From Desulfobacteraceae bacterium (lineage in GTDB: Bacteria; Desulfobacterota; Desulfobacteria; Desulfobacterales; RPRI01), in the NCBI GenBank assembly GCA_003818505.1, contig RPRI01000033.1, positions 1-41,183 of the forward strand: DNA of 41,183 bases. The letters run 5' to 3'. Shown here one piece after another: positions 6,846-39,164 of the stretch. The notes under the pieces are model-generated. The model saw nothing but the letters and a program-made list of their open reading frames with translations. It was not told the origin of the DNA and searched no databases. The position numbers and the translations under genes were made by a program. Numbering within the stretch: position 1 is the stretch's first letter; each line of letters starts with the position of its first letter.

Positions 6846-6914
6846 TAAGAATCTTTTTGAACCTAACCCCGCCGAAGGTCCGCCGCGGCTCACTTGCAGC
6901 AGGGAACTGTAATC

Positions 6915-13380: not shown

Positions 13381-13400
13381 TCAACTTAACCCAGGCTATA

Positions 13401-14786: not shown

Positions 14787-14815
14787 GAAAAGGATCAGAG
14801 GGCATTAAAATTAAT

Positions 14816-15646
14816 ATGAACGAAGGACAAATACAGAAAATAATCATTGAGCCGAGGGGTAAGCTTGCTGGTTTCCAATTCCGCGAGCTGTGGCAATACC
14901 GTGAATTGTTAAGATTTCTGATCATACGTGACATCAAGGTGCGTTATAAGCAGACTGTGCTGGGGGGGCTGTGGGCCATCCTCCAGCCCTTTATGAACAT
15001 GATCGTTTTCACAATATTCTTCGGGCATTTGGCTAAAATACCTTCTGATCATCTTCCTTATCCCATTTTTGTTTATACCGCACTCCTGCCTTGGCAATTC
15101 TTCAGCGGCGGCATCGGCAGTTCCGGAAACAGCCTTGTTGCCAACAGCCATCTTATTTCCAAGGTGTATTTTCCGAGAATGATCATTCCATCCGCTTCCC
15201 TGGGGGCCGGCTGCCTTGATTTCTTTATCGCCTTCATCCTCCTGATTGTGATGATGGTCTACTATGGCATCTATCCGGGAATGGGGATATTACTTTTCCC
15301 CTTACTCATGATACTAGTTGCCGTAGCCGCTCTGGGTGTGGGCATGATCCTCGCCGCGCTCAATGTCGCCTACCGCGATTTCCGATACGTGATTCCCTTT
15401 CTGGTTCAATTCTGGCTTTTTGCCACCCCAGTCATCTATCCGGCTAGTATTGTGCCGGTACAGTGGCGGTGGCTGATCAATCTGAATCCCATGGCGGGTC
15501 TCATTACCGGAATTCGTTCCTCGTTGCTGAACCTGCCTTTGTTTTGGACGGACATTTGGATTTCCGGTACTATCAGTATATGGTTGTTCGTCATTGGCAT
15601 CTTTTATTTCAAGAAAATGGAGCGCCGTTTCGCAGATATTATTTAA
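14816..15646 (+). CDS. wzm: ABC polysaccharide exporter permease (Wzm type)
   Basis: A 276-residue ABC-2 type permease with six membrane segments. The N-terminal amphipathic region contains the family signature IRDIKVRYKQTVLGGLWAIL, and the core has LLPWQFFSGGIGSSGNSL and ALNVAYRDFRYVIPFLVQFW, all typical of O-antigen/teichoic acid exporters (Wzm, TagG). With the ATPase at 16056 it should move an undecaprenyl-linked glycan across the inner membrane. It starts 29 bases after the polymerase/ligase gene. Exporter and ATPase are usually adjacent or overlapping; here 409 bases separate them. Confidence 0.92.
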   Translation: MNEGQIQKIIIEPRGKLAGFQFRELWQYRELLRFLIIRDIKVRYKQTVLGGLWAILQPFMNMIVFTIFFGHLAKIPSDHLPYPIFVYTALLPWQFFSGGIGSSGNSLVANSHLISKVYFPRMIIPSASLGAGCLDFFIAFILLIVMMVYYGIYPGMGILLFPLLMILVAVAALGVGMILAALNVAYRDFRYVIPFLVQFWLFATPVIYPASIVPVQWRWLINLNPMAGLITGIRSSLLNLPLFWTDIWISGTISIWLFVIGIFYFKKMERRFADII

Positions 15647-16055
15647 ATTGTAACTATTCAGCCACAGATTCACACATATGAACGCAGATAGAAATTATTC
15701 AGGAGCCAGAATAAAAAGGAAACCTGCTTTGATTATGGTGATACTTCCCCCGTCGCCAGTGCTCAACTTGAAGAATTTAGTAAGTTGCGGGAGACTACAT
15801 CGCTTCTATTCTGGATTCTGACTACTGAATTCTGACTACTGAGCAGTTACAAGATTTGTATATGATAATAAAAGAAAAAATATCAGTGATGATCAGTGTA
15901 GATCATTGGCTGAGTATTTACTTTAAATTTAAACTTCGTTATCCTGAGACTGTCGAAGGGCGACGGCCCTGACGATGACCATGATAAAATATTATTATCA
16001 TTTCTGGATTGTCGCTTTACGATGAAATCCACGGGGCGGAGCTGTATAATAATAT
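15647..16055. other. Repeat-rich gap between wzm and wzt
   Basis: A 409-base non-coding stretch that interrupts what is normally a tight wzm-wzt pair. It contains a CCACAGATTCACACA-type word near 15662, two tandem copies of a 14-base unit at 15815-15842, and a CCTGAGACTGTCGAAGGG word with the hairpin AGGGC-GACG-GCCCT at about 15956-15969. These resemble dispersed intergenic repeats found in many proteobacteria. No frame is credible. Confidence 0.5.
15815..15842 (+). repeat. Tandem repeat, two 14-bp units
   Basis: ATTCTGACTACTGA occurs twice head to tail (15815-15828 and 15829-15842) with no mismatch. It lies in the gap between the exporter permease and its ATPase. The unit contains stop codons in several frames. 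Confidence 0.8.
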
Positions 16056-17345
16056 ATGAATAATACCGCAATTCATGTTGAAAATCTGGGCAAACTTTAT
16101 AAAATCGGTTCAACAAAAGAAAGCAACAAAACCTTTCGCGAGGCCATTACGGACGCAGTTAAGGTTCCATGGCGATCCATGAAGAACGTTATTTTTAAAC
16201 AACCGGTGACGAATGATAAAAATAACAACTATATCTGGGCTTTGAAGGATGTTTCTTTCGAGGTCAAACGCGGTGAAGTCGTGGGTGTTATCGGCCGAAA
16301 CGGCGCCGGTAAAAGTACCCTTTTAAAAATTCTATCCCGTATCACCGAACCTACGGAAGGCCGGATCGTCCTGCACGGGCGTGTCGGATCTCTTCTGGAA
16401 GTCGGCACAGGTTTTCATTCCGAACTGACGGGTGAAGAAAACATCTATCTCAGCGGCACCATCCTCGGTATGAGCAGCAGAGAAATCAGTAGTAAATTTG
16501 ATGAAATTGTTTCTTTTGCTGAAATGAGAAAGTTTATCAATACGCCCGTGAAATATTATTCCAGCGGCATGTACATGCGTTTGGCCTTTGCCGTGGCGGC
16601 TCATCTGGAGCCCGAGATTCTCCTGGTGGATGAGGTCCTTGCTGTTGGTGATGCCGACTTCCAGAAAAAATGCCTGGGAAAGATGAACGACGTTGCGAAT
16701 GAAGGCCGAACCATTTTGTTTGTAAGTCATAATATGGCTGCTGTGCAGTCGCTGTGTAAAAAGACTATTCTTCTTGAGTCCGGGTCTGTCGTAAAGTCGG
16801 GCGATTCGAAATCTGTGGTTTCCAGCTACCTGTCAAGTTCTGGAAGAATAACATCTGCAATGGTATGGAGTGATGAAACAGCGCCCGGAAATGAGGAAAT
16901 TACCCTGAAATCTATGAGCGCCTATTCGGATGATGGGAATAATAGCGGCGTTTATCAGAGCAGGAAAAAAATTATTATCGAAACCAAGTTTACAACCACC
17001 AACATTCACTCGGCACTCTGTGTCGGTTTTGACCTGGTAAGTGCCCAAGGTGAAACAGTCTTAAGGAGCTATCAGACCGATATGCCTCCTGAGAAATGGC
17101 CAAAGGTAAAACAGGGAGAAAACATCTGGCGCTGCATGATTCCAGCTGGTCTCTTGAATGCGGGGCATTTCGATCTGTGCCCAAGAATAGGAATTCACAA
17201 TATGTATTGGATTGTATATTTAGACTCAGTAGCTCAATTTGAAGTGGTACTGGATCACGGCGTTTCCCCCTTTTGGAGTTCACTGGATAGCAGGAATCAC
17301 CCTGGCATCATTGCCCCCATATTAACTTGGGAACCCATGAAATGA
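16056..17345 (+). CDS. wzt: ABC polysaccharide exporter ATPase with glycan-binding C-terminus (Wzt type)
   Basis: A 429-residue protein. The N-terminal ~250 residues are an ABC ATPase: Walker A GRNGAGKST (80-88), the signature YSSGMYMRLAFA (about 168-179, replacing LSGGQ as is normal for this family), Walker B ILLVDEVLAVGD (about 188-199) and the switch His in FVSHNM. The C-terminal ~170 residues form a beta-rich Wzt-C-like domain (KIIIETKFTT, DLVSAQGETV), which in O-antigen exporters recognises a modified non-reducing chain end. That would couple export to chain termination, and the two FkbM methyltransferases just downstream are candidate chain-end modifiers. The partner permease is at 14816-15646. 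Confidence 0.93.
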   Translation: MNNTAIHVENLGKLYKIGSTKESNKTFREAITDAVKVPWRSMKNVIFKQPVTNDKNNNYIWALKDVSFEVKRGEVVGVIGRNGAGKSTLLKILSRITEPTEGRIVLHGRVGSLLEVGTGFHSELTGEENIYLSGTILGMSSREISSKFDEIVSFAEMRKFINTPVKYYSSGMYMRLAFAVAAHLEPEILLVDEVLAVGDADFQKKCLGKMNDVANEGRTILFVSHNMAAVQSLCKKTILLESGSVVKSGDSKSVVSSYLSSSGRITSAMVWSDETAPGNEEITLKSMSAYSDDGNNSGVYQSRKKIIIETKFTTTNIHSALCVGFDLVSAQGETVLRSYQTDMPPEKWPKVKQGENIWRCMIPAGLLNAGHFDLCPRIGIHNMYWIVYLDSVAQFEVVLDHGVSPFWSSLDSRNHPGIIAPILTWEPMK

Positions 17346-17352
17346 TGCAGGG

Positions 17353-18288
17353 ATGAAAATGAACGGAGACTCTTTTCGTATCAATCGTTTTTTCAGGCAC
17401 ATTTATCAGGGCACACTACTGGAACGAATCAGAGAAGAATTGCGCGCATATGTGAAGCGCAGGCGTTCGGCATGGTGGCAGCAACGGATAGGTCAAAAAG
17501 AATATCTCACATTTAAACTCCAATCCGAACTGAAAATGCTTCTTTATTTCGACAGCAGACTTAGTCAGGAAATATATTGCGGTTATTTCGAATGGAAGGA
17601 GCGTCAATTTCTCTACGATTTTTTGAGAGATGGTGAAATTTTTGTCGATATCGGTGCAAATATAGGATTATTTACACTAATAGCTTCTCATAAAATTGGC
17701 AAAAAAGGACAGGTTTATTCTTTTGAGCCCTGCTCCAAGACTTACCATCGCTTAGTAAAAAATATTGATTTAAACGAGATGAGTAATACGAAATGCTTTC
17801 AAATCGCCTTGTCTGATCATACCGGACAGGTTGAAATGAATATATCTTTGGATGGTTACGATGCATGGAATTCGATTGTAAAACCGACTGCGGGAAACGC
17901 TTTTGCCGTAGAGACGGTTCACGCGATGAAGTGGGATAATTTTGCACACGAACATAATCTCATGGGACGTGTGAACCTGATGAAAATAGATGTCGAAGGA
18001 TGGGAAAGTCATGTTCTATCCGGCGGCTGTGAGTGTTTTGGCAGGAAAGACGCGCCGGTCCTGCAAATCGAATTTACAGATGAAGCCAGTCAATCCGCCG
18101 GAACTTCATGCCAGTCTCTTTATCGTCAACTCGAAGGACTCGGTTATAGTATGTTCATTTACGAAGCAAAATCTAAACGACTCATCCCTGATCCTATTCG
18201 CAACAGTTATCCATATCTCAATTTGTTTGCTGCCAAATATCCTGAGAAAATCAATATAAAGCTTAAGAAAAGAAATTTTCTATCATAG
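17353..18288 (+). CDS. FkbM family methyltransferase
   Basis: A 311-residue protein of the Methyltransf_21 (FkbM) type. SAM motif I is FVDIGANIGLFTLIAS (about residues 97-112), with YSFEPCSKTYHRL as the acidic loop and LMKIDVEGWESHVLSGG as the conserved C-terminal motif. FkbM enzymes O-methylate sugars or polyketides. In this cluster a sugar hydroxyl of the exported glycan is the likely target. The start follows the wzt stop by 7 bases; ATG codons at 17353 and 17359 are both possible. A second, shorter FkbM protein follows 6 bases later, so the operon carries two such activities. Confidence 0.88.
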   Translation: MKMNGDSFRINRFFRHIYQGTLLERIREELRAYVKRRRSAWWQQRIGQKEYLTFKLQSELKMLLYFDSRLSQEIYCGYFEWKERQFLYDFLRDGEIFVDIGANIGLFTLIASHKIGKKGQVYSFEPCSKTYHRLVKNIDLNEMSNTKCFQIALSDHTGQVEMNISLDGYDAWNSIVKPTAGNAFAVETVHAMKWDNFAHEHNLMGRVNLMKIDVEGWESHVLSGGCECFGRKDAPVLQIEFTDEASQSAGTSCQSLYRQLEGLGYSMFIYEAKSKRLIPDPIRNSYPYLNLFAAKYPEKINIKLKKRNFLS

Positions 18289-18294
18289 AAATAC

Positions 18295-19134
18295 ATGTCC
18301 CGGCTTATGTTTCTATATAAAATAAAAGAGATTTTAAAACGAATCGCCCGACACTATGGATTTGTTGTGCAGAGGTATAATCCCTGTGAATCGTTTTTGC
18401 GATGCACATTAAATGGTTCGATGAGCGCAGCCCGTGGTGCAGGGTTTACCCCGAAAACGGTGGTTGATGTTGGTGCTGCCCGGGGCTGTTGGTCTGCTGA
18501 AGTTTCGTCCGTCTGGCCGGATGCCCGTTATATCCTGATAGATCCACTTGAAGAAAATCGCCAGGAACTGGACCGTGTATGCGGAAAGCTGAAGAATGCG
18601 GATTTCAGGATTACAGCAATTACGGACCATTCCGGCAAAATAATAATAAATATCCATCCCGATCTGGAAGGTTCAACCATATTTCTGGAGCGGGAAGAGA
18701 ATATAAACGGTGTGCCGCGGGAAGTAAATTCCATGACTCTGGACGATCTGCATGCCGGAATGAGGTTCGAGAACCCCGTTTTATTAAAAGCTGATGTGCA
18801 GGGTGCAGAAATGCAGGTTCTAACGGGTGCTGCGAAGGCATGGCCTCTCTTTGATATGATTATTCTGGAGGTTCTTTTGTTTGACATCTATCAGGGCAAT
18901 AATCCTCAACTGTATGACGTCATTTATTATTTAAAATCAAAAGGTTTTGTGGTGTGGGATATCTTCGGGATGGGTTATCGGATGCTGGATGATGCGCTGT
19001 GCCAGGTCGATGTTGTTTTTGTCCGGGAAGACGGCATATTCCGTAAAGTACATAAGTATGCAACTGAGAAGCAACGATTGGATCAATTGGCAGCAATAAA
19101 AAGCGCCAATCCGAAAAGGTTTAAACAGGTCTGA
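18295..19134 (+). CDS. FkbM family methyltransferase (second copy)
   Basis: A 279-residue protein. SAM motif I reads VVDVGAARGCWSAEV (about residues 56-70), followed by YILIDPLEENRQEL, and the FkbM C-terminal motif appears as LLKADVQGAEMQVLTGA. It differs clearly from its upstream neighbour, so it is a diverged paralogue or was acquired separately rather than arising by a recent tandem duplication. It probably methylates a sugar in the glycan, possibly as a chain-capping step read by the Wzt C-domain. This is inference from context. Confidence 0.87.
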   Translation: MSRLMFLYKIKEILKRIARHYGFVVQRYNPCESFLRCTLNGSMSAARGAGFTPKTVVDVGAARGCWSAEVSSVWPDARYILIDPLEENRQELDRVCGKLKNADFRITAITDHSGKIIINIHPDLEGSTIFLEREENINGVPREVNSMTLDDLHAGMRFENPVLLKADVQGAEMQVLTGAAKAWPLFDMIILEVLLFDIYQGNNPQLYDVIYYLKSKGFVVWDIFGMGYRMLDDALCQVDVVFVREDGIFRKVHKYATEKQRLDQLAAIKSANPKRFKQV

Positions 19135-19152
19135 TTCTTTAACACGAATTTT

Positions 19153-20028
19153 ATGAAGCTATTGCCTACAATAAGTATTGTGACGCCTTCGTACAATCAG
19201 GGCGCATATCTGGAGCAGACGATAAAGTCTGTTCTCGACCAGGATTACAGCGGGTTGGAGTATGTCATTATTGATGGCGGATCATCTGATAACAGTGTTG
19301 ATATCATCAAACATTACCATAACCAATTATCATACTGGGTCAGCGAACCTGATTCTGGGCACGCAGATGGCATTAATAAAGGCTTCGCACAAACTCATGC
19401 CGGGATCATGGGGTGGCTCAATAGTTCGGATGTTTATTACCCATGGACATTAAAAACAGTCGTCCGGATATTTAACGATCTCCCGGAAGTAAAATGGATC
19501 TCCGGCATACCGACCAATATATACGAAGGCGCCGCTCCCGATAAAGTTCAGTCTGATTTCAGAAATAAATATGATTTTCTTTCAGGTCATTATAACTGGC
19601 TGCAGCAGGAATCAATTTTCTGGAGGCGGGATTTATGGGATGAAGCCGGCGGACAATTAAATACCGATCTCAAATATGCCTGTGACTTTGAGTTATGGCT
19701 CCGATTTTTTCAGAAAACCTCATTAAACCATGTTAACACAATTCTTGCCGGTTTTCGAACACATGAGAATCAACGTGGCAGCATAGCAATAGATTCCTAT
19801 CGAGCCGAGGCTGCTGAAGCGTTTCGGGGATTTTGGAGTTCTTTCGGATATAAGGATCATTTATGTGCAAACTTCATCAGATTCACAAACGGCAAAGCTG
19901 GCCGGTTATTCCGGACATACTTAAAGCATTTAGGTTTTATCAATTGGTACGGTTACGATCGGATAATTTTTGATTTTCAGGAGAAACGATGGTTATTAGC
20001 TCCGAATTCAGTATCAGATCTATTCTAG
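19153..20028 (+). CDS. Glycosyltransferase family 2
   Basis: A 291-residue GT-A fold enzyme. The N-terminus ISIVTPSYNQGAYLEQTI with VIIDGGSSDNS is the nucleotide-sugar binding signature of GT2. SEPDSGHADGINKGF and GWLNSSDVYYP cover the region of the metal-binding DxD-type motif, which here reads SSD rather than the common SDD. It is soluble or peripheral, with no membrane segment. It should add one sugar to the lipid-linked glycan in the cytoplasm; donor and acceptor are not readable. It begins 18 bases after the second FkbM gene. Confidence 0.9.
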   Translation: MKLLPTISIVTPSYNQGAYLEQTIKSVLDQDYSGLEYVIIDGGSSDNSVDIIKHYHNQLSYWVSEPDSGHADGINKGFAQTHAGIMGWLNSSDVYYPWTLKTVVRIFNDLPEVKWISGIPTNIYEGAAPDKVQSDFRNKYDFLSGHYNWLQQESIFWRRDLWDEAGGQLNTDLKYACDFELWLRFFQKTSLNHVNTILAGFRTHENQRGSIAIDSYRAEAAEAFRGFWSSFGYKDHLCANFIRFTNGKAGRLFRTYLKHLGFINWYGYDRIIFDFQEKRWLLAPNSVSDLF

Positions 20029-20056
20029 CGTAAAATAATCGCATTAGCAGTTACAG

Positions 20057-21079
20057 ATGATGAAGAAAGAGAGCCGGGGAGTGATTGACAGAACCTATCT
20101 TGTCACGATGCGTAAAAAAAGGGGAATGCATGCCGACGTATATGAAGATTTTGAGAAAGATATTATCAAATACACAGGATGGAAAATTGTAAAGGGTTCC
20201 GTAAATATCCTGGAGCGGGTATTTGAAAAATATTTTTTGCCCCGTCTGAAATATCGCACATTCCCTTTTGACCTTCCGGGTATGAATCGCGACAAGATTC
20301 TCTTCTCGTCTCTCTCCGGGATAGAATATATAAAAATATTCCAGCACTACATATTTAAGTCGAAACTCAAGGTCATCTATCAGTTCGACTCGTGGACTCA
20401 TGACAATGCCATAAACGAAAATGCATTCCGATCATTTAAAATCAACATAGCTTTTATTTCCATCCAAAAATCAGCGAAGTATTTTAATTCCCTGCGGATT
20501 CCAAACTTTAAAGCCTATTGGATGCCTGAAGCTATTAACTGCGCCAGCTATCGCCGGCGTGATTATGGAGAGAAAGATATCGATATTCTGCAATATGGCC
20601 GGCGCTGGGAGTGGCTGCATGAACAACTGCTGCCTTTTTCCAGAACCAATGGAATCAATTATCAATACCCGATAGACAACGACAATGTTAAAATTCAATT
20701 TAAAGACCGGGAAGCACTTCTGAATGGATTGTCAAAAGCCAAAATAGCCGTATGTGTTCCCAAGACAATTACCCATCCTGAGATATATGATCTGTCCACA
20801 GTCACTTCGAGATATTTTGAGTGTATGGCTTCAAAATGTCTTATCCTCGGGCATGCGCCACCGGATCTCATAGCCTTGTTTGGATATAATCCGGTTGTTG
20901 AAGCTGATTATTCAGACCCAACGGGCCAATTGAAATATCTGCTTGATCATTATATCGATTTTGTTCCGCTGATTGAAAAAAATTATGAGATAACGAAAGA
21001 AAAACATCAATGGAAAAACAGAATCGATGATATTAAGAATATACTATATAAAAGCATTGGTTCCAAGGGGACTTCATGA
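20057..21079 (+). CDS. CgeB-like glycosyltransferase (Glyco_trans_1_2 C-terminus)
   Basis: A 340-residue protein. The C-terminal third carries SRYFECMASKCLILGHAPPD, the typical segment of the GT-B family related to spore maturation protein CgeB, where a conserved Glu region binds the donor. The N-terminal half (YQFDSWTHDN, QYGRRWEWLHEQL) fits the acceptor-binding lobe. Two adjacent ATGs (20057, 20060) are possible starts. Its stop overlaps the next start by four bases (ATGA), indicating translational coupling with the following related gene. Confidence 0.8.
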   Translation: MMKKESRGVIDRTYLVTMRKKRGMHADVYEDFEKDIIKYTGWKIVKGSVNILERVFEKYFLPRLKYRTFPFDLPGMNRDKILFSSLSGIEYIKIFQHYIFKSKLKVIYQFDSWTHDNAINENAFRSFKINIAFISIQKSAKYFNSLRIPNFKAYWMPEAINCASYRRRDYGEKDIDILQYGRRWEWLHEQLLPFSRTNGINYQYPIDNDNVKIQFKDREALLNGLSKAKIAVCVPKTITHPEIYDLSTVTSRYFECMASKCLILGHAPPDLIALFGYNPVVEADYSDPTGQLKYLLDHYIDFVPLIEKNYEITKEKHQWKNRIDDIKNILYKSIGSKGTS

Positions 21080-22089
21080 AAATCCTCTCAAGCGGTCATC
21101 ATAATCCCCATTTTTTCACCATTACCGAATATATTGAATCGGCTATTCGAAATCTGGGTCATGATGTATCCGTATTTGAAGACCGGCAGCATGTTATTCC
21201 GGGAAGAATAAGAAAACGTGTACCATTCCTTAATCAACTGGATCTCAAAATCATCAATAGAAAGATGCTATCGCTTGCCAAGTCCTGCAAGCCGGACATC
21301 GCCATCATCACAGGCGGTAACAGAATAGAAGTGAAAACCATTCGCCGCTTAAAAAGACTGGGTGTCATAACTGTGTTATGGACCACCGATCCCGCTCCAT
21401 ATTTTGAAACGCTGGTCACAGGAGCCGCGTTTTACGATTATATATTCTGTCAGGGCACGGAAGCGGTTGAAATGCTTGCCCGGGCCGGAATCAAAGGCGC
21501 ACAATGGCTTCCGATGGCCTGTGATCCAGAATATCATCATTCAGTTGAATGTACTTCGGCAGACAGGAAAAAATATGGCAGTGATATTGTTTTTGTCGGG
21601 TCATATTATCCTAACCGGGCGACGCTTTTTGAAAAACTAGTGGATTTCAATATCGCCGTCTGGGGGCCGGGATGGGACGCCCTTGATCGTAACTCGCTTC
21701 TTGGCCGGTGCATCCGTGGTGCGCATACGACACCAAATGATTGGTTGAAAATATACAGCGCCAGCAAAATTGTTCTTGCTACCCACTACAAGGACCCGCA
21801 AAACAGATTCCCCGTTTATCAAGCCAGCCCACGTATCTTTGAGGCTCTGGCATGCAGGGCATTCGTGCTGTGTGACGATCAAAGGGATGTGTTTTCCCTG
21901 TTTCAGGATGGTGAAGACCTAGTCCGCTTTATTGACGCCTCTGATCTTATGAACAAAGCAAAGCACTATCTTGCCCATCCCGAAGAAAGAAATAAAATCG
22001 CCGGGATGGGAAACCGCAACGTACTGAAAAACCACACCTATACCCATCGGATCAGGGAACTCTTCTCAAAGATCGGCAACAGGGCATGA
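21076..22089 (+). CDS. CgeB-like glycosyltransferase
   Basis: A 337-residue GT-B protein similar in layout to its upstream neighbour. It opens with MKILSSGHHNPHFF, has TVLWTTDPAPYFETL in the middle and, near the end, ASPRIFEALACRAFVLCDDQRD followed by LFQDGEDLVRF, the characteristic C-terminal signature of the CgeB/DUF3880 group. It overlaps both neighbours by four bases (21076-21079 and 22086-22089), so the glycosyltransferase run is a single operon. The sugar specificity is unknown. Confidence 0.86.
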   Translation: MKILSSGHHNPHFFTITEYIESAIRNLGHDVSVFEDRQHVIPGRIRKRVPFLNQLDLKIINRKMLSLAKSCKPDIAIITGGNRIEVKTIRRLKRLGVITVLWTTDPAPYFETLVTGAAFYDYIFCQGTEAVEMLARAGIKGAQWLPMACDPEYHHSVECTSADRKKYGSDIVFVGSYYPNRATLFEKLVDFNIAVWGPGWDALDRNSLLGRCIRGAHTTPNDWLKIYSASKIVLATHYKDPQNRFPVYQASPRIFEALACRAFVLCDDQRDVFSLFQDGEDLVRFIDASDLMNKAKHYLAHPEERNKIAGMGNRNVLKNHTYTHRIRELFSKIGNRA

Positions 22090-23240
22090 AAAGTAGTCCC
22101 GCAAAAAAAATCCTTCATATTGTTGAAGATTTAAAAGTCGGCGGCCTTGAAAAGATATTGGCGTCGATTGTTCTGTCTCTCGATCCGTCGAAATACGCCC
22201 CACAGGTCTGGTGCCTGACTATGGGAGGGCAGGTTGCGGATGAATTGATCAAACAGGGGATATCCGTGCGGATTCTTGGCTTGAACGGCTATTACAATCC
22301 CTTGCGGATTGCGGCACTTGCCCGGATGATGAAGAAAGAGAAATTTCACATAATCCATACACATGGCTACTTCGCCGGTACCTTTGGCAGGCTTGCGGCA
22401 ATCCTGGCCGGTGTTCCGGTTATAATCGCCCATGTTCACAGCACCTACTATGACTATGGCAAAAGAAATCTCCTGATCGAGAGATTCCTTTCCTGTTTCA
22501 CTGATAGAATCATCTGCATTTCTCAAGCGGTGGAAAGGTTCGTCACCGTCAACGAGAAAATTCGCAAAGAAAAAACTTGCCTGATTTATAACGGCGTAAC
22601 GCCACCCGATAAACTCCTGGACGATAATCTGAGAAAAAAATTGCGGGCGTCTCTGGGATTGGATGCTGATGTGATAGTCATTGCTGTCGTTGCCTCCCTC
22701 ACGGCAAATAAGGGGCATGGACTATTACTGACCGCCTTCAAGGAGATTTTCCTGAGACATCCGTCGGTCAGGTTGCTTATTATCGGCGACGGCCCCTTGC
22801 GGGAGCAGATTGAGGCATCGACCCGGCAACTGATGATTGATCGGGTGGTTCTGTTTATGGGAATACGAAAGGATGTCTTTGACTTGCTTCAAATTGCGGA
22901 CATATTCGTTTTGCCGACTCAGATCCGGGAAGGCCTCGGAGTCGCATTGATTGAAGCGATGGCAGTGGGTCTTCCCATCATCGCGACCAGCATTGGCGGC
23001 ATACCCGAAGTCATTGAGGATGCCGGGAATGGATTTCTGGTCTCTCCGGGAAGTTCGAAACAGTTGGCTGAAGCTATAAGAGTACTGGTCAACGATCAAG
23101 CGCTGAGAACCGATATGGGCCTTCGGGGAAGGCAGATATATGAGTCAAAATTCACCATGCTGAAAATGACAGGGCTTGTTGAAACCATGTACGATGAGCT
23201 CCTATGTAAGAGATTGGACAAGAAATTGTATGTCAGATGA
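22086..23240 (+). CDS. Glycosyltransferase family 4
   Basis: A 384-residue GT-B retaining glycosyltransferase. The N-terminal domain starts ILHIVEDLKVGGLEKIL, with the family's GG motif; the hinge region includes CISQAVERFV and IYNGVTPPD. The donor-binding domain has VASLTANKGHGLLLTAF and the E-x7-E motif EGLGVALIE, which contacts the nucleotide sugar. There is no membrane span. It lies in the polysaccharide cluster and its end overlaps the following GT4 gene. Confidence 0.92.
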   Translation: MKSSPAKKILHIVEDLKVGGLEKILASIVLSLDPSKYAPQVWCLTMGGQVADELIKQGISVRILGLNGYYNPLRIAALARMMKKEKFHIIHTHGYFAGTFGRLAAILAGVPVIIAHVHSTYYDYGKRNLLIERFLSCFTDRIICISQAVERFVTVNEKIRKEKTCLIYNGVTPPDKLLDDNLRKKLRASLGLDADVIVIAVVASLTANKGHGLLLTAFKEIFLRHPSVRLLIIGDGPLREQIEASTRQLMIDRVVLFMGIRKDVFDLLQIADIFVLPTQIREGLGVALIEAMAVGLPIIATSIGGIPEVIEDAGNGFLVSPGSSKQLAEAIRVLVNDQALRTDMGLRGRQIYESKFTMLKMTGLVETMYDELLCKRLDKKLYVR

Positions 23241-24348
23241 CCGGATAAACATATTATACTTCTCAAGCTTTGGAACCCTTAAAGGGGGGGGGCAGAAAAG
23301 CCTTTATCATCTTGTCGCGCGTCTGGATAAAAAGAAGTTTCATCCTGTCGTTTTACTTCCGGCCGAAGAGGATTTGGCGCAGAAATTAAGAGAGTTGAAT
23401 ATTGATGTCGTCATCCAGACATTGCCATCGGTTATCTCTTTCAACTTATTGCCCGGTTTTAATGCCTTTTTCAGTTTGCTGAGATTGATAAAGAAACATA
23501 GGATTGACCTTATACATACCGATGGTCCCCGCAACACTTTTTATGCCGGTATAGCGGCGAAATTAAAACGTATTCCTCTCGTCTGGCATGTTAGGGCGTC
23601 AAACCGTGACAGGTTCGACAGCATCCTGACCTTATTCCCAGCAAAGATAATCCTGGTGGCGAATTCTCTCCGCAGCAGGTTCTCCGGAATCGAGCGTGAT
23701 GACAGATTTATTACGATATACAACGGAGTGAATCCGGCGGAATTTGTAAAAGTCAGCTCATCTGACCAGATAAAAGAATCATTAGGAATTGAGGAGAGCT
23801 CTTTGCTGATTACGGTATTTGCCAGGATTGAACCGCTTAAAGGACAAAAATATCTGATTGAAGCCTGCGGCAGCATATTGAGCGGATTGCAAAAGTTCCA
23901 TATTTTTTTCGCAGGGGAGATAACGGACAAGGAATATCAGCGCGAATGTCTGGACTTGGCGGAATCACTTAATATTAAGGAACGAATTGTTTTTGAAGGA
24001 TTTAGAACAGATATCAGCAATATATTAAATCGAACGGATATTGTTGTTATGCCCTCTCTTTTTGAGGCGTTTCCCAGGGCCGTGATAGAAGGGATGGCCG
24101 CCGGAAAAGCGGTGATTGCAACCGACGTCGGAGGGACGGCGGAAGCAGTGGAAGAAGGTATTACCGGTTTTGTAGTACCGCCGGAAGACCCTGCTGCCCT
24201 GGCTGAAAAAATCCTGTTGCTTGCAGGGGACAGGGAAACGAGACGAAAGATGGGGGAGTCAGGGCGTTTAAGAGCGGAAAAATTATTCAGCATTGAAGAA
24301 AATCTAAGGAAGACGGAGTGGGTATATCATGAACTTCTGGGGAGATGA
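23230..24348 (+). CDS. Glycosyltransferase family 4
   Basis: About 372 residues from the ATG at 23230 (MSDDRINILYF). The longer frame from 23176 lies deep inside the upstream gene and is unlikely. The N-terminal domain has SSFGTLKGGGQKSL, and the donor domain has FARIEPLKGQKYL and the E-x7-E motif EAFPRAVIE followed by GMAAGKAVIATDVGG. It is a retaining GT-B enzyme that adds a sugar to the growing glycan. Its start overlaps the preceding GT4 gene by 11 bases, indicating coupling. Confidence 0.91.
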   Translation: MSDDRINILYFSSFGTLKGGGQKSLYHLVARLDKKKFHPVVLLPAEEDLAQKLRELNIDVVIQTLPSVISFNLLPGFNAFFSLLRLIKKHRIDLIHTDGPRNTFYAGIAAKLKRIPLVWHVRASNRDRFDSILTLFPAKIILVANSLRSRFSGIERDDRFITIYNGVNPAEFVKVSSSDQIKESLGIEESSLLITVFARIEPLKGQKYLIEACGSILSGLQKFHIFFAGEITDKEYQRECLDLAESLNIKERIVFEGFRTDISNILNRTDIVVMPSLFEAFPRAVIEGMAAGKAVIATDVGGTAEAVEEGITGFVVPPEDPAALAEKILLLAGDRETRRKMGESGRLRAEKLFSIEENLRKTEWVYHELLGR

Positions 24349-24354
24349 CTCCGC

Positions 24355-25182
24355 GTGAAACCGGTTGAAACCAGTTGCAACCTCTGCGGACAGAACAGTT
24401 TCAAAGTCCGAGAAGATGATGATCCACCTTTCAGGGTGCTGGAATGCCTGAATTGCAGGCTGGTATTTGTTCATCCCTTTCCCGATATTGCCACGCTGGC
24501 AGTTCATTATGACGCGGATTATTACAGGGATTGGATTTGCCAGCAGAAAAACAAACGAATTAGAATGTGGGAAGGCAGATTAAATAAGCTTGAAAAACGG
24601 CGACAGGGAGAACATTTGCTGGATGTGGGTTGCGGTGACGGCGCTTTTCTGAAACTGGCGCAAGAGAGGGGATGGGAGATAAGCGGAACGGAACACTCTT
24701 CCTTTGCTGCGAATTATGTCAGTGAGGCTCTCGGTATTCCCGTATTCTGCGGAGAGATTTTTGACGCCGGGTATCCGGAGAATTCCTTCGACGTGGTGAC
24801 CATGTGGCATGTCCTCGAGCATCTGACGGACCCCAAGCGGTATCTTCGGGAGATTCATCGCATCCTGAAACCATCCGGGCTGCTCGTGATTGCCGTCCCA
24901 AACGTTAATGATTACATAATGCAAGCCGCCTACAGGTTGGGGAAGAGAAGGCCCTTGAAACTATTTTCTAAAGATGACAGGGAAATCCACCTTTATCATT
25001 TTTCTGACAAAACCTTGAGAAATTATCTGCGGAATACCGGATTTGAATGTCTCAAAATTGCTCCTGATTATGGCATTACTGAATACTCAAAGAAAATGGT
25101 CAATTCCATCGCGGTGGTCTTATATTACATGTCGGGATTGAGGATATTCAACGCCCTTGAGGTATATGCCACACGTATCTAA
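24355..25182 (+). CDS. SAM methyltransferase with N-terminal zinc ribbon
   Basis: A 275-residue protein with a GTG start at 24355, supported by GGGGAG about ten bases upstream. The N-terminus carries two CxxC pairs (CNLCGQ and CLNCRLVFVHP), a zinc-ribbon pattern common in methyltransferases of polysaccharide and rhamnose-modification loci. The Rossmann domain follows: LLDVGCGDGAFLKLA (motif I), then FDVVTMWHVLEHL and HRILKPSGLLVIAVPN (post-I to motif III). It is a likely sugar or nucleotide-sugar methyltransferase. It starts six bases after the GT4 gene and its end overlaps the GT9 gene by 17 bases. Confidence 0.87.
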   Translation: MKPVETSCNLCGQNSFKVREDDDPPFRVLECLNCRLVFVHPFPDIATLAVHYDADYYRDWICQQKNKRIRMWEGRLNKLEKRRQGEHLLDVGCGDGAFLKLAQERGWEISGTEHSSFAANYVSEALGIPVFCGEIFDAGYPENSFDVVTMWHVLEHLTDPKRYLREIHRILKPSGLLVIAVPNVNDYIMQAAYRLGKRRPLKLFSKDDREIHLYHFSDKTLRNYLRNTGFECLKIAPDYGITEYSKKMVNSIAVVLYYMSGLRIFNALEVYATRI

Positions 25183-26299
25183 AATATCTGTGAAATCAAT
25201 TTTCAAGGCAATTTATTTGAATGCAAGGTGCTTTGCTTTAAAAACGCTGAGCATTCTCCTTTTTCAAAGAAATATCTTCCCTGTGATCCGGAATATCGGA
25301 AGCATCCTCCTTATTCGCGTGGACAGGGTAGGCGATATGGTGCTCTCAACGCATGCTTTCAGAGCGATTAAGGTCTTATTGCCACAGGTTCATCTCATTG
25401 TAATGGCTTCGCCGGCCAACGCGCCGGTCTTGAAGAACAATCCGGATGTGGATGAGGTTATTGTCTATGACCGGTCCGCCAGTTTACTCGAAAAAATACA
25501 GTTTATCAACGGATTGAGATCCCGTCATCTCGATCTTGCCATCGATCCTTATACCGATTATGAGCTGAAAACCGCGTGGTTGGCGGGTATGAGCGGCGCA
25601 GACCATAGAATAGGCTATGCAGCCTTTGGCCGGGAGTTTTTTTTTAATTGTATGTCGCCAAAAATTGAGGGCAACAAGCACTTCATTGATGGCGCCACTG
25701 ATCTGTTGAAGCATATCGGCATTTCTTCCGAAAACAGGAAACCGGCCATTTATCTTGGAGCGGACGAACAAGCATGGGCCAATCAATGGCTGCAGGAAAA
25801 TAGAGTCCAAAGCAAAAAGATTGTTGCCATCCATCCCGGTGCTTATTATGAGACGCAACGATGGCTACCGGAATATTATGCCGGGCTTATTAACCTGATT
25901 CGACGAAATACCTCATTCGAGGTTGTGGTGCTGGGCGGTCCCTCGGATGCCCTTGTCGTCGAGGATATTCTTGCCGGGATTAAGCCTCATGTTTGTGTAT
26001 CCGTTCAGGAGGATATCAGAAAGTTCTTTGCTATCCTCGCGCAATGCCGGTTGCTTGTCTGCAACAATTCGGGGCCGCTGCACTGCGCCGTCGCGCTCGG
26101 CATTCCGACCATCTCCTTTATGGGACCAACCATTAAGGAACAGTGGATGCCCATAGGCGAGAGCCACCGGGTATTGCGCTTGGATGATCTGCCCTGTATC
26201 GGCTGCAATCTCGGCCGTTGCAAGATCAGGACCCATGACTGCATGAGATTGATTGAACCCAAAGACGTAGTTGAAATAATTGTGAAGGAATGCTTTTGA
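25166..26299 (+). CDS. Heptosyltransferase-type glycosyltransferase family 9
   Basis: About 377 residues from the ATG at 25166; a TTG at 25157 is possible. GT9 signatures are ILLIRVDRVGDMVLSTHAF at the N-domain, VAIHPGAYYETQRWLPEYY at the start of the donor domain and CNNSGPLHCAVALGIPTIS with FMGPT near the end. GT9 enzymes transfer heptose or related sugars to lipid A-core. A Cys-rich tail (CIGCNLGRCKIRTHDC) follows the donor site, as in several heptosyltransferases. This suggests the cluster also builds or decorates a lipopolysaccharide core or a heptose-containing glycan. Confidence 0.91.
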   Translation: MPHVSKISVKSIFKAIYLNARCFALKTLSILLFQRNIFPVIRNIGSILLIRVDRVGDMVLSTHAFRAIKVLLPQVHLIVMASPANAPVLKNNPDVDEVIVYDRSASLLEKIQFINGLRSRHLDLAIDPYTDYELKTAWLAGMSGADHRIGYAAFGREFFFNCMSPKIEGNKHFIDGATDLLKHIGISSENRKPAIYLGADEQAWANQWLQENRVQSKKIVAIHPGAYYETQRWLPEYYAGLINLIRRNTSFEVVVLGGPSDALVVEDILAGIKPHVCVSVQEDIRKFFAILAQCRLLVCNNSGPLHCAVALGIPTISFMGPTIKEQWMPIGESHRVLRLDDLPCIGCNLGRCKIRTHDCMRLIEPKDVVEIIVKECF

Positions 26300-29658: not shown

Positions 29659-30858
29659 TCAAATCTTTAACCACCCTCTCCTAAGAGATGTATCCAAAAT
29701 AACTCCAACAAGGAAGGCTGCCCCCATGTTCCACATCGCAAAGGCAGCTACTATCAGCATAACATAGAAATCGGATTTCCTGCCGCCGATATCTTTTACA
29801 ACCAGCGCCAGTTCGGAGCCGGCGAAAAACAGGATTACCCCCAGTATAGGGTCGGGGAAAATCTTAAAGATGATTGAAACGGATTCGCTGAAAAACAGGG
29901 CTATGAAAATGAGAATACCCCCCAGTATCACCAAGGCTCCACCCGTTTTGGCCCCGAAACGGACATGCCCAGCCATTCCTCCTGCGCCATGACACATGGG
30001 AATGCCGCCAAAGAGAGGAGCGATGAGGTTCATAATCCCCTGGGAAACAGCGATTTTCTTCTCACTTACCTGCCGGTCGGGAAACAGGTGATTGTTCTCG
30101 GCAACAATTGCAATTACGGCATTGCCCAGGGTTAATGGTATCTGGGGAAGTGTGAAGAGCAGGGTGCCTGCAACAATGTCATTCCACCCTATAATCGGCA
30201 GGCTGAATACAGGCAACCTGAAGCCAACATGAATCTTGGCCAATTCCGAAATCAGCTGCGGATTCATGATGACCGAGGAGACTATCCCGATGATCAGGAG
30301 CAGGAACATAGCCGGAATCCTGGGGTTCGTCAGAAGAAGATAGGTTACGACCAGGGCGATGCCGGCCAGAACAGGCGCCGCCCTCATACGGTTGATGCCG
30401 CCCACCATGAAAGAGAGCCCCAGTCCCAGCATGATGCCCCGCACAACAGGCTTGGTGGCTATCCGTGCAATCGGCCTTAAAGCGCCGGTTATGCCTGCCA
30501 GAAGCCAGAAAAGTCCGGTGGCGAGGCCTGCTCCGAAGAGAACTGCCGGGCTGATGCCCCCGGCAATAGCTGCCGCACCGATGGCTTTCATTGGCTGAAT
30601 GGGGATCGGTGTTTTGTAATAAATTCCGGCGGCCATCAAAAACAGGCCAAACATGAAGAGGAGCCCCAGCGGATCAACCTTTACTATCGTGATATAGGCC
30701 ACGACAAAGGGGATCAGTGTGCCGATATCGCCGAAAGCGCCGGCCCACTCCATCTTGTTATAGAGATTCTTTGATTGCTTTGTGTGCTCATTTTCGGTAT
30801 GCGCCGGATCACCGCTCTCAGTTTTCTTAGACAGATCGTCCGCCGTCATGGCAATCAT
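29659..30858 (-). CDS. Molybdate transporter, MOT1 family
   Basis: A 399-residue membrane protein with about 10-12 segments after a hydrophilic N-terminus. The MOT1 family signatures are clear: EWAGAFGDIGTLIPFVVAY, then TPIPIQPMKAIGAAAIA near the N-terminus, and GGIPMCHGAGGMAGHVRFG in the second half. MOT1 proteins are high-affinity molybdate importers distantly related to SulP sulfate carriers. Starts at 30858 or 30849 are both possible; AGGAAGG lies nearby. It is the last gene of a three-gene leftward operon, 135 bases after the molybdenum storage protein, which gives a coherent uptake-and-storage unit. Confidence 0.9.
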   Translation of the reverse strand: MIAMTADDLSKKTESGDPAHTENEHTKQSKNLYNKMEWAGAFGDIGTLIPFVVAYITIVKVDPLGLLFMFGLFLMAAGIYYKTPIPIQPMKAIGAAAIAGGISPAVLFGAGLATGLFWLLAGITGALRPIARIATKPVVRGIMLGLGLSFMVGGINRMRAAPVLAGIALVVTYLLLTNPRIPAMFLLLIIGIVSSVIMNPQLISELAKIHVGFRLPVFSLPIIGWNDIVAGTLLFTLPQIPLTLGNAVIAIVAENNHLFPDRQVSEKKIAVSQGIMNLIAPLFGGIPMCHGAGGMAGHVRFGAKTGGALVILGGILIFIALFFSESVSIIFKIFPDPILGVILFFAGSELALVVKDIGGRKSDFYVMLIVAAFAMWNMGAAFLVGVILDTSLRRGWLKI

Positions 30859-30993
30859 CCTTCCTGCTTTTCTTTTTACTTGCCGACAAGTTCCGGACCC
30901 GCCCGCCGTATTTCGCGCGCGCGGGAAATAAAGCCGAAACGGATTGAGAAGAACCCGGATTAAGAGAGCATATTCGGACTTTTTATGAAACCA

Positions 30994-31827
30994 TCATTTT
31001 TGTTTAAAAATAATTGTTCCAACATGCTCCCCGGCAAGAGCTTTTGTGATATTACCAGGCACCATGCCGTTGATTATCTGAACCTCTTCGATCACTTCAC
31101 TGTTCTGCATAATCTCAAGGCAGGGCCGTTCTATCACCAGGTCATCCTGGTCCCGTTCCATCAGGTCCCGTGCCCCTATTTTTGGAATAAACTCGGCATC
31201 TGGATTTTTCTTCGGATCATCGGTATAGAGGCCATTCTCATCTTTTACAAACAAGACCCGCCGCGAGCCAATGAGGTCTGCCAGAATAATCAATCCTGAA
31301 TCGGTGCGGTGAACCGGTATTCGACCTTTCGCCGGTTTGATCGCAAAGTAATCATAAGGCGGCATCCCGTGCATCACCGGAATAATCCCCTCAGCGAAAT
31401 AGGTTGGAAGCTTGACTATGTCGCTATGAGAGATTTTGATGCCGCCCCAGGGAGAAAGCAGTACGGCGATCATGAGGGCATTCTGTTCGGATACCATACT
31501 TCCGAAACGAGCGATTATGCCGGTGGGCATTCCCATTTCCAGCCCAATTGTATAGATATGGCGGCTCCGGGTTCCTCCACCGGTTACTATCAGCATTTTA
31601 TGCTTGTTGCGATTGGCAACTATTTCTTTTAAAATACCGGGAAGTACCTGTACTCCCCGGTCGCAGATTGATTGCCCGCCGATTTTAACAACTGCAACAT
31701 CGGGGTACAGCCTTTCCTGCGGAGCAATGTTCAGCTGAGCAATAAACTCTTTGCTTACAAGGCTCTCTCCCATCAAACGGCTTTTAACATGAAGCCGCTT
31801 GCCGTCTTTATCACGAACCAAAGCCAT
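30994..31827 (-). CDS. Molybdenum storage protein subunit (amino acid kinase fold)
   Basis: A 277-residue protein of the UMP-kinase-like amino acid kinase family that closely follows the layout of the Azotobacter MoSto subunits (MosA/MosB). Landmarks are VVKIGGQSICDRG (phosphate-binding strand-loop), LIVTGGGTRSRHIY, GMPPYDYFAIKPAKGRIPVHRTDSG, VLFVKDENGLYTDDPKK (nucleotide site) and the C-terminal IINGMVPGNITKALAGEHVG. MoSto stores molybdenum as polyoxomolybdate clusters inside a hexamer, filled using ATP. Azotobacter needs two subunits; only one gene is here, so a homohexamer or a partner elsewhere is implied. GGAGGA lies six bases before the ATG. The neighbouring MOT1 gene supports the function. 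Confidence 0.9.
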   Translation of the reverse strand: MALVRDKDGKRLHVKSRLMGESLVSKEFIAQLNIAPQERLYPDVAVVKIGGQSICDRGVQVLPGILKEIVANRNKHKMLIVTGGGTRSRHIYTIGLEMGMPTGIIARFGSMVSEQNALMIAVLLSPWGGIKISHSDIVKLPTYFAEGIIPVMHGMPPYDYFAIKPAKGRIPVHRTDSGLIILADLIGSRRVLFVKDENGLYTDDPKKNPDAEFIPKIGARDLMERDQDDLVIERPCLEIMQNSEVIEEVQIINGMVPGNITKALAGEHVGTIIFKQK

Positions 31828-31860
31828 GATTTATCCTCCGGAATAAGTTGTGACCTTGCC

Positions 31861-32070
31861 CTATTTCTTTTTCTTTTGATGCGTTACATCCTTTCCGAGC
31901 GGCACCAGTTCGGCGCCGACAGCTTTAGCTATCTGTTCCAATTCGGTTAAACGCAAGTGCTCGGCATATATTTTCAAATTGCAATCCGAGACGGCAACTG
32001 CGCGGTACCTAGGCTTCTTTTCCCCCTCCTTTAAAGCAGTTCGTTCTCTGTAAAATATCTTTCCGGTCAT
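31861..32070 (-). CDS. 69-residue hypothetical protein leading the molybdenum operon
   Basis: A small soluble protein with a good ribosome site (AAAGGAG, seven bases before the ATG) and a stop 33 bases before the storage-protein start. It is charged at both ends (KIFYRERTALKEGEKKPRYR and a KKKK tail). The middle reads AVAVSDCNLKIYAEHLR followed by LTELEQIAKAVGAELVPL, a plausible beta-alpha-alpha unit with a single Cys. No family is recognised. Its place as first gene of the unit suggests an accessory role in molybdenum storage or control, but this is inference. Confidence 0.8.
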   Translation of the reverse strand: MTGKIFYRERTALKEGEKKPRYRAVAVSDCNLKIYAEHLRLTELEQIAKAVGAELVPLGKDVTHQKKKK

Positions 32071-32216
32071 GGCCTTTCTCCTTTCGTTAGTTTATCTCCG
32101 TTTCTTACGTTAGAACCGATCCAAGTGTGCTTAAGTCGACAAATAAACATTCGGGTAATAAATCGGAAATGAGACAGGATCGGGTAAATGCTTAGAATTT
32201 GCTCTTTATATCAAGT

Positions 32217-32245
32217 TGTATCGCATTAATCGGTCTATATGTCAA
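32217..32245 (-). promoter_or_regulatory. Sigma70-type promoter for the molybdenum operon
   Basis: On the reverse strand TTGACA (32240-32245), a 17-base spacer and GATACA (32217-32222) face the small gene starting at 32070. The preceding CTTGCTGAAC and the AATGC before -10 match the promoter at 5132-5160. The transcript would have a leader of about 140 bases. I see no convincing ModE palindrome or molybdenum-cofactor riboswitch in that leader. Confidence 0.55.
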
Positions 32246-32320
32246 GTTCAGCAAGAAACTTTATTATCACCTTAACCGTAATATAGTATGCCGAATCCTT
32301 TTTGCCAACTCTTTAATTCT

Positions 32321-37571: not shown

Positions 37572-39164
37572 CTATTTTTTCCCGTGCTGAAAAGAATCAA
37601 TTCCGGGAATGCTAATTACATGCTTTCCGTTAAAAGGCAGGCACCGCCCGACCTGAAAGGAGCCTTTCAGTTTATCCGAAATTGTTTTATAAATATCAGG
37701 ACGGCAGGCAAAGAGAAGCTCATAATCTTCCCCGCCCGCGAGGACAATTTCTTCCGGTTTTTTACCGTATTTCCTGCAGAAAGAAACAAGGGACGGGTCA
37801 AAAGGAGAGGACATCAGATCAAGTTCAACCGTTATTCCGGAAGCCTTTGCGATATGGCAGGAGTCGCCGGCAAGGCCGTCGCTTATATCCATGACGCAGT
37901 CAACTCCCGCTTCGGCAAGTATCTGGGCTGCATCGAATCTTGCCGCCGGGAATTTGAATTTTGATACAAGGCTGTTAAAACTGGTGTCGTTTTTTATTAG
38001 TGATTCAAGACCTGCCCTTGCAAGGCCCAAAGGGCCCGTGGAATAAAGCCCGTATCCCGGCCTTGCATTCGAACGCTTGGGGAATATATCATTTCTTCCA
38101 GCTCCAACTGCAAAGAGATCCAGCGACAACTCGTTTCCAGCTGATATATTTCCTCCTCCGAGCGAACATTCATGGCGGTTCAGGCTTTTGGCCACGCCCT
38201 TGTAGATCTCTTCGATCATACTGTCTGAAACATAAGAAGGAAGTGAAAGATTGATGAAGAGAATTACCGGCCTGGCATAACAGGCGGCAATGTCGCTGAG
38301 TGTCGCTTCGACAGCTTTAATTCCAACTTCTTCCGGAGTCTGCCAGCTGAGCCTGAAATGAATTCCTTCCTTCTGTGTATCGGTCGTAATCACCGGGTTT
38401 GAAACCGGGGCAAGGAGACAGGCGTCATCTCCCGGAGGAACTATCATGTTCAATGATGCAGGCACGTTTTTCAACAGTTTTTCGATAAGTCCGAATTCGT
38501 CATCCCACGGGGTGTGTAATAAAGATCGAGCAGGGCAGGAGCAGGCCGAGCCGATCTTAAGCGCCGCCTGCAACGGATCGGAAGCCCTCGAAATGGAGCT
38601 TATCACCGCGATCCCGTCAGCTTTGTGGAGAAAACATGACTGAGCCGTTTTTTCGGTTATGCCTCCTATCGCGACGACCGGCAGGGAAACTTTTTCGGCA
38701 ATCGACTGAAGTCCTGAAAGACCGGTTACCTTTTTTGTGTCTTCCTTGGTGCCGGTGGCGAAAACAGGGCCTGTTCCGATATAATCGCAGTCAGTGAGAA
38801 CAGTCCTTCCAAGCTCATCCGGGGTGGAGATGGATATTCCTATAACCGCTTCAGTGCCCAGAATTTTTCTCGCAACGGAAGGTGTTTCATCACTCTGGCC
38901 CAGGTGAACTCCGTCTGCCGTCAAAGCTTTGGCGAGAAGGATGTTGTCATTTACGATAAAAGGTATGTTGTTGCATTTGCAGAAATCTCTGATTTCCTCA
39001 GCTTCCCTGTAATAACCCGAAGAAAAGGACTTGTTTCTGTACTGTATTATCGTTGCTCCGGCTTTTATGGCGATCTTTGCCTGGGCAAAGGGCTCGATTG
39101 CAGGCGCTTTGTCGTCCGTTATGAAATAAAATCGAAGGGCTTTTTTAAGGTCTTGTTTCAGCAT
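37572..39164 (-). CDS. Fused thiamine-phosphate synthase / thiamine-monophosphate kinase (ThiE-ThiL)
   Basis: A 530-residue bifunctional protein. Residues ~1-205 are ThiE: FYFITDD, ATIIQYRNKS, FIVNDNILLAKALTADGVHLGQ, YIGTGPVFATGTK and VVAIGGI, the TIM-barrel enzyme that joins HMP-PP and thiazole phosphate. From ~218 it is ThiL: DEFGLIEKLLKN, PPGDDACLL, TTDTQKEGIHF, ATLSDIAACYARP, MDISDGLAGD and AGGEDYELLF, which phosphorylates TMP to TPP with ATP. The two steps are consecutive, so the fusion could channel TMP. The start at 39164 (MLKQDLKK) has only a weak ribosome site. It ends 41 bases before the riboswitch of the next unit. No TPP riboswitch is seen upstream of this gene itself. Confidence 0.93.
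   Translation of the reverse strand: MLKQDLKKALRFYFITDDKAPAIEPFAQAKIAIKAGATIIQYRNKSFSSGYYREAEEIRDFCKCNNIPFIVNDNILLAKALTADGVHLGQSDETPSVARKILGTEAVIGISISTPDELGRTVLTDCDYIGTGPVFATGTKEDTKKVTGLSGLQSIAEKVSLPVVAIGGITEKTAQSCFLHKADGIAVISSISRASDPLQAALKIGSACSCPARSLLHTPWDDEFGLIEKLLKNVPASLNMIVPPGDDACLLAPVSNPVITTDTQKEGIHFRLSWQTPEEVGIKAVEATLSDIAACYARPVILFINLSLPSYVSDSMIEEIYKGVAKSLNRHECSLGGGNISAGNELSLDLFAVGAGRNDIFPKRSNARPGYGLYSTGPLGLARAGLESLIKNDTSFNSLVSKFKFPAARFDAAQILAEAGVDCVMDISDGLAGDSCHIAKASGITVELDLMSSPFDPSLVSFCRKYGKKPEEIVLAGGEDYELLFACRPDIYKTISDKLKGSFQVGRCLPFNGKHVISIPGIDSFQHGKK

Follow-up and report, generated by a model that had tools for sequence, protein, structure and literature searches.

Gene Organization at the Locus

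The analyzed window is a stretch of 41,183 nt (positions 1–41,183, forward strand) from contig RPRI01000033.1 of a Desulfobacteraceae bacterium, and the locus of interest consists of three leftward genes that encode a 69-aa small protein, a 277-aa protein with an amino-acid-kinase fold, and a 399-aa transporter (table 1). The small gene is separated from the second gene by 33 bp and the second gene from the third by 135 bp; a scan of the region between the second and third genes found no terminator-like site, and Shine-Dalgarno-like stretches can be read from the sequence ahead of all three starts. The first-pass annotation had described a promoter and these three genes as one leftward unit. 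The genes, their places, and their strand are as described there, but the promoter is only weakly backed, because the region holds nine promoter-like sites compared with 4.9 ± 2.1 in shuffled sequences, and TTGGCA-17-TATATT is the best match among them. On the same strand and upstream of the unit lie thiamine-related genes (ECF-type transporter genes, ThiW, CytX, and ThiD) that end 250 bp ahead of the small gene.

Table 1. Features of the molybdenum storage locus, with positions in the window
Feature	Position	Strand	Basis and remarks
69-aa small partner gene	31861-32070	minus	ORF; unnamed family; first gene of unit in window
Single-type MoSto subunit, class I, 277 aa	30994-31827	minus	phmmer, tree, fold alignment, residue columns
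MOT1-family (PF16983) putative molybdate/oxyanion transporter, 399 aa	29659-30858	minus	Pfam
Promoter-like TTGGCA-17-TATATT, ~210 bp upstream of small gene	32280-32308	minus	10/12 consensus match; weak evidence

The Kinase-Fold Protein Is a Molybdenum Storage Protein

The 277-aa protein had been called a subunit of the molybdenum storage protein (MoSto) type, and grouping with UMP kinases instead of MoSto had been set beforehand as the outcome that would speak against this. Both phmmer and tree analysis place it with MoSto. It matches the beta subunit of Azotobacter MoSto (2ogx_B) with an E value of 5.5e-70 and the alpha subunit with 1.2e-45, compared with 8.2e-8 for the best UMP kinase match, and its scores stay below the curated cut-offs of both the archaeal (59.5 vs. 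158.05 bits) and the bacterial (32.5 vs. 243.9 bits) UMP kinase models. In a maximum-likelihood tree of 79 rows, to which 133 different rows had been thinned by identity, the protein lies deep within MoSto and the UMP-kinase-like protein of the same genome forms a very long branch; the tree search was a quick one and raised long-branch warnings. When an AlphaFold model of the protein (mean pLDDT 81) was compared by VIA-align, MoSto beta chains gave Z scores of 27.0–27.9, among them 2ogx_B (Z 27.3, rmsd 3.1, 224 aligned), and UMP kinases reached at most 21.2, the best of them being 2bne_B (Z 21.2, rmsd 2.8, 199 aligned). Bacterial and archaeal UMP kinases (PyrH) have the amino-acid-kinase fold in common with this protein, with Z about 21, but we rejected UMP kinase identity because the sequence matches, the curated cut-offs, the tree, and the fold scores all speak against it.

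By sequence, tree, and fold, the protein belongs to one family with MoSto of Azotobacter vinelandii, an (alpha-beta)3 hexamer of MosA and MosB (PDB 2ogx and others), which is encoded by two subunit genes as opposed to one here. The genome from which the window derives (98% complete, 5.7% contaminated) encodes no other MoSto, in line with the earlier claim of one subunit type; two other hits in it share 26% and 40% identity (E values of 8.7e-8 and 3.4e-4). The nearest relatives of the window MoSto are found in Desulfobacterota-type records, not in aerobic nitrogen fixers.

The Small Gene Encodes a Conserved Basic Protein

As judged from its alignment, the 69-aa gene is more than a chance ORF. 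Absence of the small gene from all other genomes had been named beforehand as an outcome against it; we found a conserved family with 73 aligned homologues (72 of the 81 small-gene copies from loci L028-L107 plus that of the window, alignment A1), in which R8, R10, P20, and H38 are invariant. The protein core is basic, with a net charge of +2 to +9 and a median of +5 in 96 sequences. Requiring a score above the curated cut-off in Pfam and NCBIfam or an E value of at most 0.001 in PHROGs and PDB sequences, we obtained no named family from any of the four: the best Pfam score is 12.6 bits against a cut-off of 23, NCBIfam gives no match, and the best PHROG and PDB profile E values are 0.022 and 1.7. 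The AlphaFold model (mean pLDDT 78) consists of strands at residues 3–10 and 21–28, a helix at 41–51, and a strand at 53–58, with low confidence for residues 11–20 and the tail. Structure searches returned weak and mixed matches (Foldseek best E 0.23; VIA-align best Z 3.8, tied with unrelated folds), and neither gave a fold name when the model was compared with NDUFS4-like and other known folds. Natural fusions of the small gene and MoSto in one open frame do not occur in the loci scanned, and the small gene was found neither in 72,556 plasmid records nor in phages.

Linkage of the Small Gene to Single-Type MoSto

To follow the small gene in other genomes, as the first-pass annotation had proposed, we used 80 loci fetched by MoSto alone, and the small gene is beside MoSto in 79 of them; loci of Desulfosarcina and Desulfogranum are among those fetched. 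In 78 loci the small gene precedes MoSto and shares its strand; at the remaining locus with the gene (L074), it is encoded on the other strand, 2.5 kb past MoSto on its downstream side and beyond MOT1, and the one locus at which it was not found (L088) is on a contig that starts 290 bp ahead of MoSto. Measured from where the conserved part of the small gene ends to where the MoSto match starts, the distance has a median of 68 bp and is 210 bp or less in 76 of 79 copies.

Among 395 genomes sampled from the phylum, 26 encode MoSto, 22 of them as a single copy and four as two nearby copies. All 22 single-MoSto genomes carry the small gene, and the four paired ones all lack it; it also turned up in G273, which has no MoSto. 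A profile search run on G273 and the paired genomes gave the same result. Two further paired genomes from the order of G056 also lack the small gene, giving a paired total of 0/6. In a sample from the class, MoSto is encoded in 58 of 389 genomes, two of which were already in the phylum sample, and a profile search of the other 56 identified the small gene in 54. In the two exceptions, MoSto is cut at the contig end (G888) or has an in-frame loss of about residues 18–86 that is possibly an assembly fault (G788). All five single-MoSto genomes in a sample of 100 from the phylum of a Synergistales genome, and all three further genomes behind the loci, have the small gene as well. Altogether, it is present in 84 of 86 single-MoSto genomes, counting among these G676, which encodes one MoSto of each class along with two small genes, and in none of the six with an adjacent MosA/MosB-like pair. 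The small gene is therefore strictly linked to single MoSto and excluded from genomes with paired MosA/MosB, which upholds the association that had been proposed. MosAB-like pairs also occur on plasmids in 10 Azospirillum records, all without the small gene. Eight genomes of the window's own genus have neither MoSto nor the small gene, apart from one chance-level match (E 0.089). A second instance of the small gene away from MoSto, besides G273, is an extra copy in G696 on a 3.2-kb locus (L222) without MoSto.

Fisher's test on the phylum sample gives a P value of 3.5e-35, uncorrected for the relatedness of the genomes, and the presence of the small gene requires one change on the MoSto tree; the co-occurrence statistics therefore rest on few independent events. 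As read from the tree, the tie between the two genes is one old association that has been faithfully kept rather than the product of many independent gains. The single-type MoSto with the small gene form one clade (SH-aLRT 95) with two parts (TWO ARRANGEMENTS), each with a support of 100. In class I, which includes the window, the small gene is upstream of MoSto on the same strand; in class II, the two genes are tail-to-tail, mostly 41–290 bp apart. A tree of the small protein (91 of 114 rows used) divides by the class of the partner MoSto with one change and is weakly resolved inside because it rests on 62 columns only. The linkage has thus survived a rearrangement from the same-strand upstream order to the tail-to-tail order.

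Residues of the Single-Type Subunit

The arm His (MosA H10), Met149, and Lys42 are each present in 95/95 class I sequences. The Lys42 column holds Lys in all 95 single_up and all 19 single_conv rows, and the Met149 column holds Met in all 95 single_up rows and Ile or Val in all 18 class II rows; the arm His is present in 17 of 18 class II rows with one gap. Locus L074 was omitted from the single_conv counts for the arm His, Met149, His156, and His130 columns (n = 18). The MosA His130 column is His in 93/95 class I and 18/18 class II sequences. The MosA His156 column is Asp in all 95 class I and Gly in all 18 class II sequences, and the MosA Glu129 column is mostly Gly or Ser in single-type MoSto. 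Octamolybdate in MoSto is bound by a His and a Glu, His156 and Glu129 of the alpha subunit. Met149 of the beta subunit is the proposed gate. According to PDB titles, a K-beta-42-S variant was crystallized (6ris), and an H156A variant was also made.

In Azotobacter and in the paired sets L131, L171, L172, and L134/L137 (Desulfobacterota-type), the chain with the arm His lacks Met149 and the other chain has Met149 without the arm His; in these four paired sets the arm-bearing chain lacks the Lys42 column as well. The paired sets L132 and L133 show no clean division, and Met149 and Lys42 occur in both of their chains. Judged by these columns, the class I chain unites in itself what most pairs share out between an alpha and a beta chain. 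The comparison of binding residues with Azotobacter that had been suggested thus has a mixed outcome: the window protein keeps the MosB-type Lys42 and Met149 together with the MosA-type arm motif, but its MosA His156 and Glu129 columns differ. A homomeric cage would require just this merging of features. The columns further predict that the metal clusters of the interior are unlike those of Azotobacter; they may differ because the His156 column is Asp throughout class I. Another idea was that the small protein stands in for the N-terminal arm of MosA, which acts over the beta ATP site; this idea is weakened because single-type MoSto carries its own alpha-like arm motif.

Genome Context of Single-Type MoSto

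The 399-aa protein matches the MOT1 model in Pfam (PF16983) with an E value of 6e-53 and 178.4 bits against a gathering score of 30, which bears out its assignment to the MOT1 family and leaves its substrate putative. One study reports PF16983 proteins from several sulfate reducers and proposes two of those as molybdate transporters (PMC5840216). MOT1 is not a regular neighbor of MoSto, being encoded nearby in eight of 80 loci by clustering and in nine by direct match. The uptake-and-storage operon is therefore not a conserved design, and the first-pass view of it as a self-contained system does not hold in general; the trio of MOT1, MoSto, and small gene in the window is a local arrangement. 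At L074, a close MOT1 relative shares the neighborhood of MoSto. At some loci without MOT1, the neighbors are instead Tup/Mod-type transporter genes, ModE, or genes for formate dehydrogenase. By cluster labels, Tup/Mod-type transport genes, ModE, or MOT1 are found within 6 kb in 35/80 loci and formate dehydrogenase or FdhE in 15/80; FmdE-cluster genes are found in 11/80. Each label is based on one representative per cluster, and that of formate dehydrogenase (clusters 10, 12, and 17) was assigned by reading the sequence.

An Rfam search found nothing in the window; in L099 it identified three Mo/W riboswitches around MoSto, the only such locus of 10 searched. A riboswitch upstream of the small gene was considered on account of repeated 8-mers such as CGGGACGC (L063-L107) and was discarded, these being mostly the coding end of the neighbor family c1. 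Likewise, no clear shared motif emerged from 37 upstream regions (L028-L062 and the window), where the best 8-mers are low-complexity and occur in 8/37 compared with 6 in shuffles. The c1 family (alignment A2, 27 of 47 rows) weakly matches methanogenesis marker 11 and TiaS. We rejected it as a third constant gene, as it is encoded in only 41/80 loci and has no copy in the window's genome; because of this absence c1 is not essential. A further alignment, A3, comprises 32 hand-picked rows and the window.

A Proposed Homomeric Store with a Small Partner

In the genomes examined, the small gene accompanies single MoSto nearly always and is absent with the two-subunit cage, which suggests that its product is a component so far missing from the picture of how anaerobes store metal. 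We consider it reasonably probable that the locus encodes a homomeric MoSto store with a functionally coupled small partner. We infer a homohexamer with metal-storing activity that the small protein would physically bind and in which it would have a role. MOT1 would probably import molybdate (or tungstate) into the cell, and six copies of the single subunit would probably assemble into a cage that spends ATP to drive the oxyanion into its interior, with each chain bringing an alpha-type N-terminal arm and a beta-type lysine and methionine gate. The 69-aa strand-helix protein would, via its invariant Arg and His, most likely bind the homomeric cage or its oxyanion load, and it would serve loading, assembly, or release and be required by the one-subunit form alone. 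More specifically, a one-gene cage that joins alpha and beta functions in one chain may depend on this protein of ~60 residues to give in trans what the second subunit gives the heteromer (cage closure, oxyanion loading, or cluster seeding), a proposal to which we give slightly less than an even chance. That the small protein acts by direct binding, in loading or assembly, is possible and somewhat doubtful.

Other roles for the small protein can be set against this store with a coupled partner. As a release or delivery factor, it would take molybdate or tungstate from the cage to cofactor insertion, for example in formate dehydrogenase. The formate dehydrogenase/FdhE-cluster genes at 15 loci and the FmdE-cluster genes at 11 fit such a role, for which the invariant Arg and His could hold the oxyanion, but most loci have no such enzyme nearby and genomes with paired MosA/MosB do without the small gene, making this role unlikely. 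A regulator that controls the storage genes by binding DNA or RNA could likewise be small and basic, and its gene might well be the first of the unit, as it is in the window. However, the protein matches no known DNA-binding family, the 37 upstream regions have no clear motif on which it could act, and ModE, an HTH plus substrate-binding fusion, or PadR is already present in some loci; we regard regulation as quite unlikely.

The remaining readings question the store or the tie itself. Single-type MoSto could have ceased to be a store and work as a different ATP-using enzyme or sensor built on the amino-acid-kinase fold, of which the small protein would be a subunit. This might be argued from the loss of the alpha His156 column and from a 2019 experimental study in which MoSto is stated to have had no known homologues (PMC6448029). 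On account of that statement, MoSto appears to be treated essentially as an Azotobacter protein and its function outside Azotobacter seems untested. Given that Lys42 and the arm His are conserved, that Met149 is invariant in class I, and that Mo/W transport genes are common neighbors, a function other than storage seems very unlikely. It is extremely improbable that the small gene is merely carried along in the operon with no functional tie to MoSto. The single evolutionary origin of the association would allow this, but adjacency was kept after the order flipped to tail-to-tail, both genes are absent together from the eight genomes of the same genus, and the small gene is missing from G788, whose own MoSto lacks about residues 18–86.

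Comparison with Known Systems

Many genomes from the class and phylum to which the window belongs encode single-type MoSto, as do Synergistota-type genomes, often close to genes for Mo/W transport or formate dehydrogenase. The window carries one example of this widespread one-subunit form with its unnamed constant partner. Compared with Azotobacter vinelandii, the small partner gene is an addition that was not found in the six paired genomes or on MosAB-like plasmids. We found no literature on MoSto in other bacteria or on a small partner of this kind in a search that covered papers outside subscription. The constant partner offers a handle on how a Mo/W cage takes up metal, closes, or lets the metal go, and it bears on how a scarce metal is buffered in anaerobes reliant on Mo/W enzymes; if the partner does act in trans, these anaerobes would own a two-component Mo/W store of distinct architecture. 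Tungstate storage in an anaerobe has likewise been described for Tub of Eubacterium limosum, which is also a hexamer (PMC11980592); in contrast to the amino-acid-kinase-fold MoSto, Tub belongs to another family, with a single TOBE domain and eight bound tungstates.

A third gene family near MoSto

A family of proteins of approximately 250 aa with DDTD and HNS motifs, here termed c1, is encoded within 6 kb of the molybdenum storage protein (MoSto) gene in 41 of the 80 loci fetched by MoSto alone. The c1 gene mostly lies immediately upstream of the small gene that encodes the putative MoSto partner (69 aa in the window), or is divergent from it. Matches of c1 to methanogenesis marker 11 and to the N-terminal part of TiaS were weak. 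The family was found in related loci and is absent from the genome of the window.

Variant loci

At L139 (genome G273), the small gene, a c1-family gene and a PadR gene keep the order of class II loci, in which the small gene is tail-to-tail with MoSto, and MoSto is missing; this may reflect a recent loss, or a function of the small protein independent of MoSto. MoSto at L196 (genome G788) has an in-frame loss of residues ~18–86; no small gene was found near it or by a search of that genome. Two loci carry two tandem small genes upstream of a single MoSto, and three riboswitches surround MoSto in a locus from Synergistota.

Other genes in the window

The polysaccharide cluster encodes glycosyltransferases, FkbM methyltransferases, an ABC transporter, an O-antigen ligase, a tyrosine-kinase-like protein and an export protein. 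The 530-aa protein, probably a ThiE–ThiL fusion, is encoded next to CytX, ThiD and ThiW transporter genes.

Features of the window and of related loci
Feature	Location	Strand
Surface polysaccharide cluster	window 8495-26299	+
530-aa protein, thiamine monophosphate synthase domain and AIR-synthase-type N-terminal domain	window 37572-39164	-
c1-family gene, example	L065:4981-5715	+
c1-family gene, example	L107:4908-5747	+
Class II order without MoSto	L139:~8023-9774	
Shortened MoSto	L196:1501-2109	-
Tandem small-gene copies	L010:1097-1677	-
Tandem small-gene copies	L066:5320-5926	+
Mo/W (Moco) riboswitches	L099:4482-4600, 6851-6972, 12593-12709	+
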